Origin: Providencia alcalifaciens
GTDB lineage: Bacteria > Pseudomonadota > Gammaproteobacteria > Enterobacterales > Enterobacteriaceae
Length of the DNA stretch: 64,000 nt
Assembly: GCF_020271745.1 (NCBI RefSeq)
Contig: NZ_CP084296.1
Span: forward strand, 682,001-746,000
Reading direction: 5' to 3'
The position numbers were made by a program, and so were the translations under genes. Positions 42,842 to 48,149 of this stretch are shown here, piece by piece (position 1 is the stretch's first letter; every line of letters starts with the position of its first letter). The notes under the pieces are model-generated. The model had not been told where the DNA came from. It saw nothing but the letters and a program-made list of their open reading frames with translations, and ran no database searches.

Positions 42842-42870
42842 TCCTAGTCGGTTAATGCAGTGTTTTTAGA

Positions 42871-42903
42871 AGCCCTTTCTGATTTTAGAAAGGGCTTTTT
42901 TTG
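42871..42903 (+). terminator. Rho-independent terminator of dusB-fis
   Basis: AGCCCTTTCT pairs with AGAAAGGGCT and is followed by eight Ts. It also marks the border between conserved core genes and the accessory cassette that begins at 43130. Confidence 0.92.
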
Positions 42904-43129
42904 TCCCTCACAATCTGAACATGTCTCCTCACCTTTCAATAATCACCCCCCTTTCTAATACGCAAATCATATATTTTATAAATAAATTCATCTTGTTTTA
43001 ATCCTAGCCTTTATTCATGAGCATTATCACAATTAATAAAATTCTCATTTTTATACCTTGCCATTTTCTATCTAGATTTATAAATTCAACAGCCTTCTGC
43101 TCTCATCAATGAAAAATAAAAGGACTTAA

Positions 43130-44164
43130 ATGGTAACGATTGATTTAAGAAGCGATACGCTAACACGGATAAAAAAAGAGGATTTGAATAATATCAATTT
43201 TAATTATATTAGCGATGATTGTTATAATGAAGATATTTACGTCAAAAAATTAGAATCCTATATCTCAGAATTATTTAATAAAGAAGATGCTCTGTTTATG
43301 CCATCAGGCACAATGAGCAATCAGATTGGTTTAAAAGTTTTATCTACTCTAGGTGATGAAGTCATTACTGAAGTCGGATACCATATTTGCTTTTTTGAAT
43401 CATCCCAAACCTCAGCATTAAACGGTTTAATTATTAATAATGTTAAAACACAAAGCGGTATTTTAACTGAACAAGATGTTATTCAAGCCATTAATCATAA
43501 AGCTCGTTGGTCAAATTTATACTCTACCCCCAAAATCATTGCGATAGAAAGTAGTATCAGTACCTATGGTGGAATCGTATTCCCATTAGCAGAAATCAAG
43601 AGACTCAAGCGGCTATGTATTGAAAAAAACATGTCTCTATTTTTAGATGGTGCCCGAGTATTAAATAGCTGCATCTCCCTTAATATTCCTCCTCAGGAAT
43701 ATGTCAAAGATATCGATCTTCTCAACATCTGCCTGTCAAAAGGCATTGGAGCGCCGTTTGGTTCGGTGTTAGTAGGAAGTCAGCATCATATAGAAAACGC
43801 TAAACGATACCGAAAATGGTATGGCGGAGCGCTACATCAATCAGGATTGCTGGCAGCGATTGCCTTAAATAAGCTAGAACATTATGGATCTCAATTACGC
43901 ACTGATCACCAAAATGCAGTTTATCTCGCGTCTATTCTTTCACGCTATTTTCAACTCGCTTATCCAGTCGAAACTAATATCGTTATGATAAAAGTGCCAG
44001 ATGCCGAGCGCGTTGTTCAAAAATTAAAAAGCCATGGGGTATTAGCCACCGCTTGGACAGCTGATATTGTACGTTTTGTTACTAGCAGCAATATTTCAGA
44101 AAAAATGCTCAACCAACTTGAGTCCTTATTAAAAAAAATAGAAAACATTCAATATGATAAATAA
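43130..44164 (+). CDS. Threonine-aldolase-like PLP enzyme
   Basis: Fold-type I PLP enzyme of the beta-eliminating lyase/threonine aldolase family (344 residues). Seen: IDLRSDTLTR at the N-terminus, H85 in EVGYHICFFES at the position of the PLP-stacking histidine, LDGAR (D173, R176) and the PLP lysine K204 in CLSKGIGAPFGSVL. The usual ENTHN motif near residue 140 is replaced by ESSIS, so the second active-site histidine is lost and the natural substrate may differ from threonine. First gene of a three-gene cassette; visibly more AT-rich than fis upstream. AAGGAC precedes the ATG. Confidence 0.8.
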   Translation: MVTIDLRSDTLTRIKKEDLNNINFNYISDDCYNEDIYVKKLESYISELFNKEDALFMPSGTMSNQIGLKVLSTLGDEVITEVGYHICFFESSQTSALNGLIINNVKTQSGILTEQDVIQAINHKARWSNLYSTPKIIAIESSISTYGGIVFPLAEIKRLKRLCIEKNMSLFLDGARVLNSCISLNIPPQEYVKDIDLLNICLSKGIGAPFGSVLVGSQHHIENAKRYRKWYGGALHQSGLLAAIALNKLEHYGSQLRTDHQNAVYLASILSRYFQLAYPVETNIVMIKVPDAERVVQKLKSHGVLATAWTADIVRFVTSSNISEKMLNQLESLLKKIENIQYDK

Positions 44165-45320
44165 AATCATGACCACCCGATTTTTATCGGGTATCTCTTT
44201 TTACAGTTTCCTACCTTTTTTTTCTCTTTATCTTATTCATTATAAAAATATCAATGAAAGTGAAACTGCAATTATTATTTTTATTTTCCTTTTTATTAGC
44301 CGTGCTTTCTCCCTCTTCACTCACTTTATTATTAATTTTCTTAATTATAAAAAAACACTACTTTTGAGTTATCTAATTTCCTCAGCATCTATTATTTCAC
44401 TCTACGTCATTTCAAATTTTTACGCGATTCTATTATTTGCTGCATTGATTGGTGCAGGATTTTCCATTGCAAATGTCAGTACCAGTTTATTTATTGCTGA
44501 AAATAATAATCACTCAGAAAGAGTGAGACATTTTTCAGTCTTAAATGTCATTGTGAATATTTCGTCGGCAGTCGGTGGCGCCGCAGGCGAATGGTTTTAT
44601 CATGATTTTTATTCCGGAGTGATCTTTCTTCCTGCCGCTATTATGTGCATTGCTGCCCTATACTCATTAACTTTAACGAATACAAAACATACTCAACCAA
44701 TACAAAGCCAACAAACAAAAGCCTCTGCCAGTTTTTTAGAATGGGGTATTTTTCTCTGTTATAGTGCCATCCCCTTTTTTATGCTAGGGCTTGTATTTCG
44801 CAATTTGGCTTACTTATTTGAGCTCAATTATCAAGATGCTAGAGATTATGTTACGGTTTCTTATCTATTCGCTTTGAATGCCTTTATGATCATCTTTTTG
44901 CAAATCAAAGTAACCCAATTCATTGATAAACAGAAAAAATCCTATCAATCTATTATCTACAAATTCAGCCTTCTTCTGATTGCGAGCCTGCTTTTGTTTT
45001 TAAACTTCAGCGCATTAATCCCACTCTATTTGCTGATCATCCTATTTACCTTTAGCGAATTAATTTGGAGTCCCTATAACAACAGTTTAGCGATTGAAAA
45101 ATGTCCATTTATCCATAAAAAACTCTCGTTATCTATTTGTATATTCTTTTGGGGATTAGCTGAGTCCCTTGGCGCTTATATTGGCATTATTGCTAACCAC
45201 ACTCAAATGCACACCTATATCCCTATTAGCCTGCTTTTATTCCTCATTGCCCTATTCACCGCTGAATACTTTATCCATTTAAGGAGCACCGATGAAAACT
45301 ATCCTATTTCTCGAATGTAA
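44154..45320 (+). CDS. MFS transporter of the amino-acid-ligase cassette
   Basis: Polytopic inner-membrane protein of 388 residues with about 12 hydrophobic helices, fitting the major facilitator superfamily. Position-specific motifs are weak (a short FIFLFISRAFSLF segment replaces the usual loop 2-3 motif A). It overlaps the PLP gene by 11 bases and the ATP-grasp gene by 29, so the three are translated together. In comparable ligase loci such as bacilysin the MFS member exports the product; export is therefore the likely role, by inference. Very AT-rich. ATG at 44169 is an alternative start. Confidence 0.72.
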   Translation: MINKIMTTRFLSGISFYSFLPFFSLYLIHYKNINESETAIIIFIFLFISRAFSLFTHFIINFLNYKKTLLLSYLISSASIISLYVISNFYAILLFAALIGAGFSIANVSTSLFIAENNNHSERVRHFSVLNVIVNISSAVGGAAGEWFYHDFYSGVIFLPAAIMCIAALYSLTLTNTKHTQPIQSQQTKASASFLEWGIFLCYSAIPFFMLGLVFRNLAYLFELNYQDARDYVTVSYLFALNAFMIIFLQIKVTQFIDKQKKSYQSIIYKFSLLLIASLLLFLNFSALIPLYLLIILFTFSELIWSPYNNSLAIEKCPFIHKKLSLSICIFFWGLAESLGAYIGIIANHTQMHTYIPISLLLFLIALFTAEYFIHLRSTDENYPISRM

Positions 45321-46500
45321 TATCTCAGGTACTGGCGTCAGCGCCATCAAATTGGCAAAAGAGAGAGGTTATCACACGGTTTTATTCACCAAAGAACGCC
45401 ATTACTATGCTCAACTGGCTGATAACCCAATGCTCTATGTTAATGAGGTTGTGGAACTTAATACTGACTCCATGGCAGCAATTTTAAGCCATGCCCTGGA
45501 CTATAACCTGTACGGTATCGTCGCTTTCGATGACTATCGGTTAATTAATGCTGCCGCAGCATCCCACGCCTTCGGTTTACCTTCTCCAAGTTTAATTGCC
45601 CTAACGGCTTGTCGCTACAAGCATCTGACTCGGCAGTATTTACACCAACATAATGCCAATTGTCGCTACAAAGTTGGCAATATCCATGAGAAATTTGACC
45701 TGAACAATATGCAGTTCCCTATCGTGATAAAGCCCTGTGATGATAGTGGCAGCAGCCAAGTCACCATCTGCTATTCTGAGGAAGAAGCGCAGGCTGCCGT
45801 TCATGCACTATCTGAATTTCGGGTTAACCGCCGAGGATATCAGCTCTCTCCTCATTATCTTGTTGAAGAGTTCATTGAAGGGAATGAATACAGCGCAGAA
45901 GCTTACTGGGACTCTAAAGGTAACGAATGGAACATACTCGGTATCACCAAAAAATACACCACATCAGGACAATATGCCGTGGAGGTCGGCCATGATTTTC
46001 CCGATGAATCTCTTGATATCGAAAACATCACGAAAACGATCATTGAGTGGCTCACTCAAATTGGCTTATCCCACACCGTTGCCCACGTTGAATTTAAGCT
46101 TCGTCACAATGACATAAAACTCATTGAAATTAACCCGCGCGTTGCTGGCGGAATGATTGATACCCTTTGTTATCAATCAACAGGATTTGATTTAGTTGAA
46201 TGTTACCTGTCTTTGCATGTCAAAGACATGGTGTACACCCCGATACTCCGCGCCAATAAACAGTATGCGTCGATTCGCTTTTTAACCTCAGAGCAACCGG
46301 GAACAATTACCGGGATTCACGTTAATGCCCAGTTAAGTGCCCCTCTGCTATTTAATTTTGTTCCCACTCCGATAGATGTTACAACCTTGAAAGATAGCTA
46401 TAGCCGACTGGGTTACGTGATAACAACTGCCTTTGAGCAGCAATTAGCGGGGAAGAAAGCCGAGAATTGGCTTAACCATGTAAAACTTCTCTATAAATAA
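45292..46500 (+). CDS. ATP-grasp amino acid ligase-like enzyme
   Basis: 402-residue ATP-grasp protein. A Rossmann-like N-terminal domain (about 1-110) is followed by the ATP-grasp fold with nucleotide lysine K147 in PIVIKPCDDSGSS, hinge E192/E193 in YLVEEFIEG and metal/ATP residues in KLIEINPRVAGGMID (about 276-290). This layout is that of L-amino acid ligases and carnosine synthase-like enzymes, which join a carboxylate to an amine by an acyl phosphate. It overlaps the MFS gene and has AGGAG eight bases before ATG. The substrate is unknown. Confidence 0.8.
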   Translation: MKTILFLECNISGTGVSAIKLAKERGYHTVLFTKERHYYAQLADNPMLYVNEVVELNTDSMAAILSHALDYNLYGIVAFDDYRLINAAAASHAFGLPSPSLIALTACRYKHLTRQYLHQHNANCRYKVGNIHEKFDLNNMQFPIVIKPCDDSGSSQVTICYSEEEAQAAVHALSEFRVNRRGYQLSPHYLVEEFIEGNEYSAEAYWDSKGNEWNILGITKKYTTSGQYAVEVGHDFPDESLDIENITKTIIEWLTQIGLSHTVAHVEFKLRHNDIKLIEINPRVAGGMIDTLCYQSTGFDLVECYLSLHVKDMVYTPILRANKQYASIRFLTSEQPGTITGIHVNAQLSAPLLFNFVPTPIDVTTLKDSYSRLGYVITTAFEQQLAGKKAENWLNHVKLLYK

Positions 46501-46540
46501 AAAACCCAGTACAAACGCAAGTTCATACTGAGTTTTGGTT
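46500..46540. terminator. Hairpin between ATP-grasp gene and chemoreceptor
   Basis: An imperfect stem joins AAAACCCAGTA with TACTGAGTTTT around a central loop. A-run on the left and TTTT on the right allow ending from both sides, fitting its place between convergent genes. Confidence 0.65.
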
Positions 46541-46568: not shown

Positions 46569-48149
46569 TTAGACAGCCGTCGCTTCGGTAAAATTACGCC
46601 CATCATTTGTTAACTGAAATTTACTGACTGATTCCTGCAATTCTTCAGTTTGATGTTCTAATGAGCTTGCTGCTGTTGCCACTTGTTCAACTAAAGACGC
46701 ATTTTGCTGTGTCACACTGTCCATTTGAGTGATGGCAACACCCACCTGTGCGATACCTTTACTTTGCTCCTCCGAAGCTGTCGTGATCTGTTTCATAATC
46801 GCCGTCACCTCATTGATCCCTTGCAAAATATTACTCATTGTCGAGCCCATTTCATGAACCAAATGCGTGCCTTTTTCCACACACGAACTCGATTCCGCAA
46901 TCAGCTTTTCAATTTCCATTGCCGCATCGGCACTGTGACTAGCAAGCTTACGAACTTCGGCGGCAACCACCATAAATCCACGTCCATGAACCCCCGCTCG
47001 CGCCGCTTCAATGGAGGCATTCAATGCCAAAATATTGGTCTGGAAACTGATGTCATTCATCATGCTGATGATGTCAGAGATTTTTTTAGCACTCTGGGAG
47101 ATCTCATCCATCGTGCTCACCACGGACTCAACAATCACATCCCCTTGATTAGCCACCACAAAGGCCTCAGCGGCTAATTGGTTGGCTTGATGGGTATTTT
47201 CCACATTCAACTGCACTGCGGCTGTGATTTGTTCCATGCTCGCTGCGGTTTCTTCCAAAGCTGCGGCTTGCTCTTCCGTTCGTGAGGAAAGGTCACTATT
47301 ACCGTTAGATATTTCTGTCGCACCGCGATAAATACTTTCGCTACCATTACGGATAGTCAGCACCGCATCACGTAAACTGTTCTGCATCTCATCTAGTAGA
47401 GGAAAAAGTTTACCTACACAGTTACGACCAAATAGTTCGATTGGCTGGCTTAAATCCCCTTTCGCAATCTTATCGAAGTATTGGCGGATCAGCTCCAGTG
47501 GTCGTTGCATCATCTTAGCAAGGTAGCGGTCAGTGAAGATCAAAATCAGCAAACCAAAAATGCTCGCGATGATAATCACGACTCGCGTCATATTCATATG
47601 CTCATCAACCGCTTCCCGCGTGTGTTCAATCATCGCATCCGCAGTTTGGTTAAACTGAGTGATAGCCGCACCGAATGTACGGCTCAAGGCTGGGGTCACA
47701 TTATGGGCATGTGCCAAGTAAGCCGCTTTATCATCCCCCATGGAAATGGCTAATTGTGGTTTCACACCGTCATCTAGCAACGCTTGCCAACTATTAATCA
47801 CTTGATCGGAAATGGCTTTATCCATCGGACCTGGGGAAATTGACTTCATCTCCTCAAGATAACGCTCCATATTCACAAGCGCGTCTTTGACCAAGGTGTA
47901 ATCCCCTTCTTTACCCTCATTTTTGGTTTCCATCACGCGGGTTAAGCGAGTGACAAAACGAAAATATTGGTCATTACCCTGACTCAGTACCGTCATCTGT
48001 TTCACCAGTTGTCGGTCAACATGGATACCGTCAGAAATACGCGATAAGGACCAGCCGCTATACAGGCTTATGCCCCCAAGGTTTAGACATAAAATGCCAA
48101 GTAGTACGAGCATCACAGCACGTATTGAATAATTTCGAAGTTTCTGCAT
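46569..48149 (-). CDS. Methyl-accepting chemotaxis protein
   Basis: Class I chemoreceptor of 526 residues. A first transmembrane helix (about 11-31), a periplasmic four-helix bundle (about 32-190), a second helix (about 191-208), a HAMP domain (about 210-265) and a cytoplasmic signalling hairpin follow in order. The hairpin tip IEAARAGVHGRGFMVVAAEVR is conserved, and methylation-type glutamates appear in EEQAAALEETAASMEQ. No NWETF-like pentapeptide ends the protein. The ligand cannot be told; the sensor domain is Tar/Tsr-like. Confidence 0.92.
   Translation of the reverse strand: MQKLRNYSIRAVMLVLLGILCLNLGGISLYSGWSLSRISDGIHVDRQLVKQMTVLSQGNDQYFRFVTRLTRVMETKNEGKEGDYTLVKDALVNMERYLEEMKSISPGPMDKAISDQVINSWQALLDDGVKPQLAISMGDDKAAYLAHAHNVTPALSRTFGAAITQFNQTADAMIEHTREAVDEHMNMTRVVIIIASIFGLLILIFTDRYLAKMMQRPLELIRQYFDKIAKGDLSQPIELFGRNCVGKLFPLLDEMQNSLRDAVLTIRNGSESIYRGATEISNGNSDLSSRTEEQAAALEETAASMEQITAAVQLNVENTHQANQLAAEAFVVANQGDVIVESVVSTMDEISQSAKKISDIISMMNDISFQTNILALNASIEAARAGVHGRGFMVVAAEVRKLASHSADAAMEIEKLIAESSSCVEKGTHLVHEMGSTMSNILQGINEVTAIMKQITTASEEQSKGIAQVGVAITQMDSVTQQNASLVEQVATAASSLEHQTEELQESVSKFQLTNDGRNFTEATAV

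Follow-up and report, generated by a model that had tools for sequence, protein, structure and literature searches.

The stretch of DNA considered here (the window) is 64,000 nt long and comes from Providencia alcalifaciens (contig NZ_CP084296.1, positions 682,001 to 746,000). Behind fis, on the plus strand, lie three overlapping genes that encode a pyridoxal phosphate (PLP) enzyme of the threonine aldolase fold (344 amino acids, positions 43130-44164), a major facilitator superfamily (MFS) transporter (388 amino acids, 44154-45320) and an ATP-grasp ligase related to L-amino acid ligases (402 amino acids, 45292-46500). A preliminary description of this DNA had proposed these families and overlaps of 11 bases (PLP/MFS) and 29 bases (MFS/ligase). 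Open reading frames (ORFs) with exactly these overlaps are present, and each protein matches a Pfam model above its cut-off (Beta_elim_lyase, 210.3 bits, cut-off 27; MFS_1, 91.7 bits, cut-off 33.4; ATP-grasp_4, 92.4 bits, cut-off 27). The conservation of this trio, termed the cassette below, exceeds what chance would produce, because the block is kept in congeneric species and occurs once in another phylum.

Within Providencia, the fis region of 24 genomes, including that of the window, was searched with tblastn (E 1e-4). All 24 genomes carry dusB, and fis is the next gene after dusB in all 24 stretches taken. The PLP, MFS and ligase genes occur together as a contiguous block in eight genomes (G000, G001, G002, G004, G007, G015, G017 and G018). 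In seven of these the trio resides behind fis, with a chemoreceptor-like gene in between in G018; the eighth, Providencia sp. R33 (G007), has an empty fis site and its trio at another place in the genome. Only six of the 24 genomes hold an unbroken trio, because the ligase gene of G015 is broken into two parts that lie in different frames, and the MFS gene of the draft genome G017 is split. Relics of the cassette remain in the fis region of four further genomes, namely ligase ends in G003, G022 and G006 and an MFS start in G009. Of seven loci checked, six have a 29-base overlap between the MFS and ligase genes and one an overlap of 23 bases; at the PLP/MFS junction, the genes range from overlapping by 11 bases to being 4 bases apart. 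Identity to the window proteins is 52-95% for the cassette (52-85% without the near strain G015) and 93-100% for the dusB product. The ratio of non-synonymous to synonymous substitution rates (dN/dS) of the cassette is 0.075-0.107 in the eight pairs with dS below 1.5, a range that leaves out the remaining pairs, in which dS is higher or saturated. Given these low values, the three cassette proteins are maintained, though less strictly than the products of dusB, prmA and the chemoreceptor-like gene.

Outside the genus, two loci reproduce the arrangement wholly or in part. L099, on a Rubrobacteraceae metagenome contig and thus from another phylum, has the order PLP-MFS-ligase, with 42, 24 and 34% identity, respectively. 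Its MFS protein is specifically close to that of Providencia (E 3e-29), whereas four MFS proteins encoded beside other related ligases give E 0.013, E 3.3 and, in two cases, no match. In L100 (Oxalobacteraceae CAVE-383), the PLP gene (54% identity) and an adjacent ligase gene (42%) are followed by a gene for an EamA transporter. As the gene order is conserved in Providencia, recurs in L099 and has a variant with EamA in L100, we regard the three genes as one functional unit. Co-occurrence of the three families, which the preliminary description had suggested as a check, is therefore found. Scattering of the genes in other genomes, which it had named as counting against a common pathway, is seen in part: the trio is linked in Providencia and in L099, and homologues of the ligase and of the PLP enzyme are also found separate from each other in other taxa. 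L099 additionally carries a second ATP-grasp gene after the trio (L099:5249-6490), whose product gives a weak match to the BacD model, with 50.7 bits against a cut-off of 850.

The cassette is rare. A collection of 84,980 species, scanned by alignment, yielded at least seven loci, of which four are from Providencia. A single-protein scan of genome contigs found no locus; both scans use short exact peptide patterns and undercount. Whole-genome surveys with the ligase profile, the only profile used in draws that overlap between ranks, gave at E 1e-40 one genome of 369 for the class and one of 398 for the phylum, the host's own each time, and six of 295 for the family, with the host and P. rustigianii included; at E 1e-50, three of 384 genomes of the order matched, again with the host included. 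No match was present in 20,395 E. coli records, and none of the 353 stretches of viral contigs that met a pattern proved to be a relative. The ligase matched in 249 plasmid records and the PLP enzyme in 84, all below 60% identity; the neighbouring genes were inspected in three of the 249 and, for context, in three of the 84.

The PLP enzyme narrowly meets the NCBIfam model of the GntG family (NF041359; 234.1 bits, cut-off 230), which all 10 cassette PLP proteins match at E 0.001, three of them with scores of 234.1, 245.8 and 348.8. An assignment to the low-specificity L-threonine aldolase LtaE was rejected, as the score on NF007825 is 192.7 bits, below the cut-off of 312. The nearest solved relatives carry the label L-allo-threonine aldolase. 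Residues K204, D173 and R176, which we take to be the PLP lysine, the aspartate and the arginine of the fold, are invariant in the 10 cassette proteins. All 10 also contain the motif RKWYGGxLHQSG, in which the histidine is residue 236 of the window protein. Among 10 comparators, a set from which GntG itself is absent, this position is arginine in nine and histidine in one, from Streptomyces BHT-5-2, where ORFs and Pfam matches revealed no related ligase or MFS gene within about 8 kb on either side of the PLP gene. Another possible mark of the cassette enzymes, a missing histidine in the ENTH motif, was rejected: isoleucine replaces it in 10 of 10 cassette proteins and also in three of 10 comparators. 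Judged from these alignments, histidine 236 marks the cassette PLP enzymes better than the change in the ENTH motif. In a tree of PLP proteins, those of Providencia and CAVE-383 form a fully supported group, and these together with the Rubrobacteraceae and Streptomyces BHT-5-2 proteins split from the other nine comparators with support of 100/99. The only further match to the PLP enzyme in the host genome is a protein with 26% identity.

The ATP-grasp protein is related to L-amino acid ligases. Residues K147, E267, E279, N281 and R283, presumably the ATP-grasp catalytic residues, are invariant in nine of nine aligned homologues, and the LAL_C2 domain scores 24.0 bits, under the Pfam cut-off of 29.4. 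Run against solved structures, the ligase profile matches, among others, 4dim, BL00235, carbamoyl-phosphate synthetase and BacD. The top solved relative by sequence is 4dim (59.2 bits singly, 91.4 by profile, over profile positions 20-400), the best relative labelled as an amino acid ligase is BL00235 (PDB 3vot; 51.1 bits singly, 87.4 by profile), and BacD is reached by the profile with 40.0 bits (E 2.3e-9). A relation to BacD, whose mode of action the preliminary description had invoked for the ligase, is thus recovered by profile, though with 4dim on top. Three more specific identities were rejected. The NCBIfam model of the alanine-anticapsin ligase BacD is absent from the 16 families matched at E 0.001, the dapdiamide A synthase DdaF (NF041595) is matched with 33.3 bits against a cut-off of 840, and the ligase-lyase fusion PRK02186 is matched with 195.4 bits against 625, covering only positions 3-393 of 890.

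We also considered the genes that accompany remote ligases in a non-random set of 11 loci (L099, L100, L101, L107, L108, L109, L110, L112, L113, L114 and L123), three of which come from the 249 matching plasmid records; the loosest hits, such as L047-L050, in which at best the ligase alone matches, are outside this count. An MFS or EamA gene lies within two genes of the ligase in eight of the 11 (the exceptions being L101, L112 and L114), and a PLP enzyme is encoded in the stretch in eight (L099, L100, L107, L109, L112, L113, L114 and L123). L107 (G491, another genus of the family; L107:5699-11898) comprises five genes: one for a saccharopine-dehydrogenase-like protein (its match is below cut-off), one for a class I/II aminotransferase, two for ligases and one for an MFS protein. 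L109 (G470) encodes a DegT aminotransferase, an MFS protein and the ligase, and L110 (G660; L110:900-5700) has a thymidylate-synthase-like gene, an MFS gene and two ATP-grasp genes. In L123 (G1288), the ligase gene has an MFS gene on one side and divergent genes for a GHMP kinase and a PALP enzyme on the other. L114, from a Sinorhizobium meliloti plasmid, has a cysteine-synthase-family gene followed by a ligase-lyase fusion, between insertion sequence (IS) elements. L113 (L113:1161-6042), on plasmid pR33-1 of Providencia sp. R33, holds an annotated radical SAM gene, a ligase gene (29% identity), an MFS gene and a MalY/PatB-type PLP gene. This is a second, different cassette in a strain that also carries the trio, with IS elements a few kilobases away. 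In L108 (G550), the ligase gene is followed by an EamA gene; two EPSP-synthase-like proteins and one asparagine-synthetase-like protein were recognized by eye beside them (L108:3280-10495), the EamA protein alone being checked with a profile. The gene company of remote ligases is similar but not uniform.

The upstream border of the cassette in the window is a hairpin with a T-run (42870-42902, plus strand), found by eye and not listed by the terminator scan, which we presume to be the fis terminator; this agrees with the placement of the block directly behind that terminator in the preliminary description. Also by eye, AAGGA (43120-43124, plus strand), located five bases before the first ATG, is the presumed ribosome binding site of the PLP gene. 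Between the ligase gene and a convergent chemoreceptor-like gene, the terminator scan found a hairpin with a 16-pair stem (46501-46536, scored on the minus strand), possibly a shared terminator that also serves the plus-strand operon. Promoter-like matches are not enriched (13 versus a shuffle mean of 15.3). The convergent gene (46569-48149), named chemoreceptor-like by eye, resides behind fis in some species and behind the trio in others, and in still others the stretch yielded no copy. Because its position differs in this way, the interval behind fis is a variable spot. G+C content is 0.354 for the PLP gene, 0.338 for the MFS gene and 0.436 for the ligase gene, compared with 0.434 for the whole window, as expected from the earlier remark that the first two genes are AT-rich. 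The proposed lack of a non-ribosomal peptide synthetase (NRPS) stands in so far as no NRPS-sized gene is nearby (closed ORFs in the window, those running off its ends excluded, reach at most 1270 amino acids); the lack of a carrier protein, also proposed, was left without a search of the neighbouring genes for carrier domains.

Acquisition of the block, which the preliminary description had suggested, is not supported. Between the window, whose dusB product shares 99.7% identity with the P. alcalifaciens protein, and P. rustigianii, dS is 0.95 for the PLP gene, 1.45 for the MFS gene and saturated for the ligase gene, compared with 0.21 for dusB, 1.55 for prmA and 2.84 for the chemoreceptor-like gene; the synonymous divergence of the cassette falls inside the range of its neighbours. 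In a midpoint-rooted tree of prmA and dusB from the 24 genomes, the 12 with any trace of the cassette fall on either side of the deepest split drawn; within the alcalifaciens-rustigianii group, each of the seven members keeps the trio, a damaged copy of it or a remnant. The distribution of traces requires six changes on the tree, four of them forced by well supported branches. The observed number of changes is matched by 48 of 500 shuffles, and presence therefore follows the tree weakly. The simplest reading is that the cassette was present at the fis site early in the genus and was then lost many times, which disfavours a recent acquisition. Weighing against a recent horizontal gain are the same fis site on both sides of the deepest split, the relics, and dS values within the neighbours' range. 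Exchange between Providencia species may have contributed to the patchy presence.

With gene order, conservation, purifying selection, protein families and the gene company of the ligases in hand, we infer the reactions, substrates and export role that follow. It is moderately likely that the three genes form one operon for a minimal, NRPS-free pathway whose product, a dipeptide or amide with a beta-hydroxy-alpha-amino acid as one constituent, is exported. The relative of GntG-type aldolases would join glycine to an aldehyde to yield the beta-hydroxy-alpha-amino acid, breaking of such a compound being less likely. The ATP-grasp ligase would then convert one carboxylate to an acyl phosphate and link this to a second amino acid through the latter's amino group, and the MFS protein would export the resulting dipeptide or amide. 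Tentatively, and with less confidence than for the pathway itself, the cassette might represent an undescribed class of two-enzyme secreted products, in which an unusual beta-hydroxy-alpha-amino acid built by an aldolase is coupled by a ligase, spread thinly over Providencia, Oxalobacteraceae and Rubrobacteraceae and perhaps serving as an interbacterial antimetabolite.

Several observations weigh against a biosynthetic operon of this kind. Half of the congeners (12 of 24) have no trace of the cassette at the fis region, and these 12 have no close copy of the PLP or ligase gene, the two genes searched genome-wide. The cassette has higher dN/dS values than dusB, prmA and the chemoreceptor-like gene, whose scored pairs all fall at 0.011-0.074. 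The MFS protein was rejected as the YdeE efflux transporter (27.2 bits on NF007472, cut-off 582), and the ligase scores below the cut-off of every one of the 16 NCBIfam families that it matches at E 0.001. The structure that outranks BL00235, 4dim, is labelled phosphoribosylglycinamide synthetase. Among the remote loci, L101 (a Brevibacillus bin) has a ligase ORF of 300 amino acids that follows a SpoVR gene, and neither an MFS nor an EamA gene was recognized there. In L112 (Kitasatospora NBC_00039), the ligase forms part of a gene that is annotated as a PLP-dependent enzyme and lies among NRPS genes, and the stretch carries no annotated transporter; L114 likewise has no transporter in its stretch. 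Threonine aldolases favour cleavage. The name-giving GntG is itself described as performing the retro-aldol step (PMC10367076), and because of this the aldol reaction of the cassette may run in either direction.

It is therefore conceivable, if unlikely, that the aldolase works in the direction of breakdown, splitting a hydroxy-amino acid into glycine and an aldehyde, while the ligase and transporter handle a product or some other compound; no aldehyde-handling enzyme is encoded among the three genes, however, and the ligase requires a carboxylate and an amine. Slightly more doubtful is detoxification, in which the ligase would cap an imported toxic amino-acid analogue, the MFS protein would expel it and the PLP enzyme would destroy it. 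Patchy presence with repeated losses suits such a role, as does the resemblance of the MFS protein to drug-exporter models, which is weak and below the cut-off in every case, but two enzymes and an exporter in an order fixed across phyla look biosynthetic, and related ligases adjoin biosynthetic-looking genes. The three proteins have no PADLOC match that would indicate anti-phage defence.

Small exporter-linked cassettes are known for metallophores, and in L107 the saccharopine-dehydrogenase-like gene lies beside two such ligases. Nevertheless, a secreted metal-binding or opine-like compound in place of a dipeptide-type metabolite seems improbable, since the trio has no dehydrogenase and no TonB-type receptor or ABC importer was recognized beside it by eye, no profile search having been made. 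It is very improbable that chance brought together a standard threonine aldolase, an exporter of drugs and a ligase unrelated to them, for instance an ATP-grasp protein of the purine type. Each family is common alone, homologues occur apart and the 4dim label fits a purine-type enzyme, but against this stand the same order in eight of 24 Providencia genomes and another phylum, the overlapping frames, and a PLP enzyme below the LtaE cut-off. A pathway that builds an unusual amino acid, ligates it and exports it, as first proposed, appears from the sequence data to be the best available reading, and the overall interpretation is partly supported.

Among known systems, the bacilysin pathway employs the free-standing ATP-grasp ligase BacD, the MFS exporter BacE and a PLP enzyme that is an aminotransferase. 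The Providencia cassette has the same three kinds of component, and its ligase profile reaches BacD; in contrast, its PLP enzyme has an aldolase fold, anticapsin genes are absent and the BacD model is unmatched. BL00235 is the best relative of the ligase labelled as an amino acid ligase, yet it is remote, and its specificity is not transferable. The gene company of the cassette is not that of purine synthesis, unlike what the label of 4dim would suggest. With DdaF the ligase has the broad superfamily in common, at a score far below the DdaF cut-off. The guanitoxin pathway enzyme GntG is linked to the cassette by the family model that the Providencia PLP enzyme narrowly passes, whereas the surroundings differ. 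The phosphonoalamide ligases PnaB and PnaC are ATP-grasp enzymes that make short peptides (PMC11867202); they are alike in being of the peptide-forming ATP-grasp type and unlike in belonging to a phosphonate pathway, a likeness drawn from description and not from sequence. A full-text literature search found no description of a PLP/MFS/ATP-grasp trio, in keeping with the earlier statement that no known product could be named for it.

The general kind of this orphan cassette is known; its particular combination is one that the literature search did not find described. Each of its parts is of a known kind, which makes it a good lead though not yet a surprise. If the proposed function is correct, it would be among the smallest possible metabolite pathways, with one enzyme for carbon-carbon bond formation, one ligase and one exporter, and would be simple to transfer into a laboratory host. 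Taken with the related cassettes, which combine other PLP enzymes with related ligases and exporters, it points to the ligase family as a marker of small pathways that would be missed by searches for NRPSs or carrier proteins.

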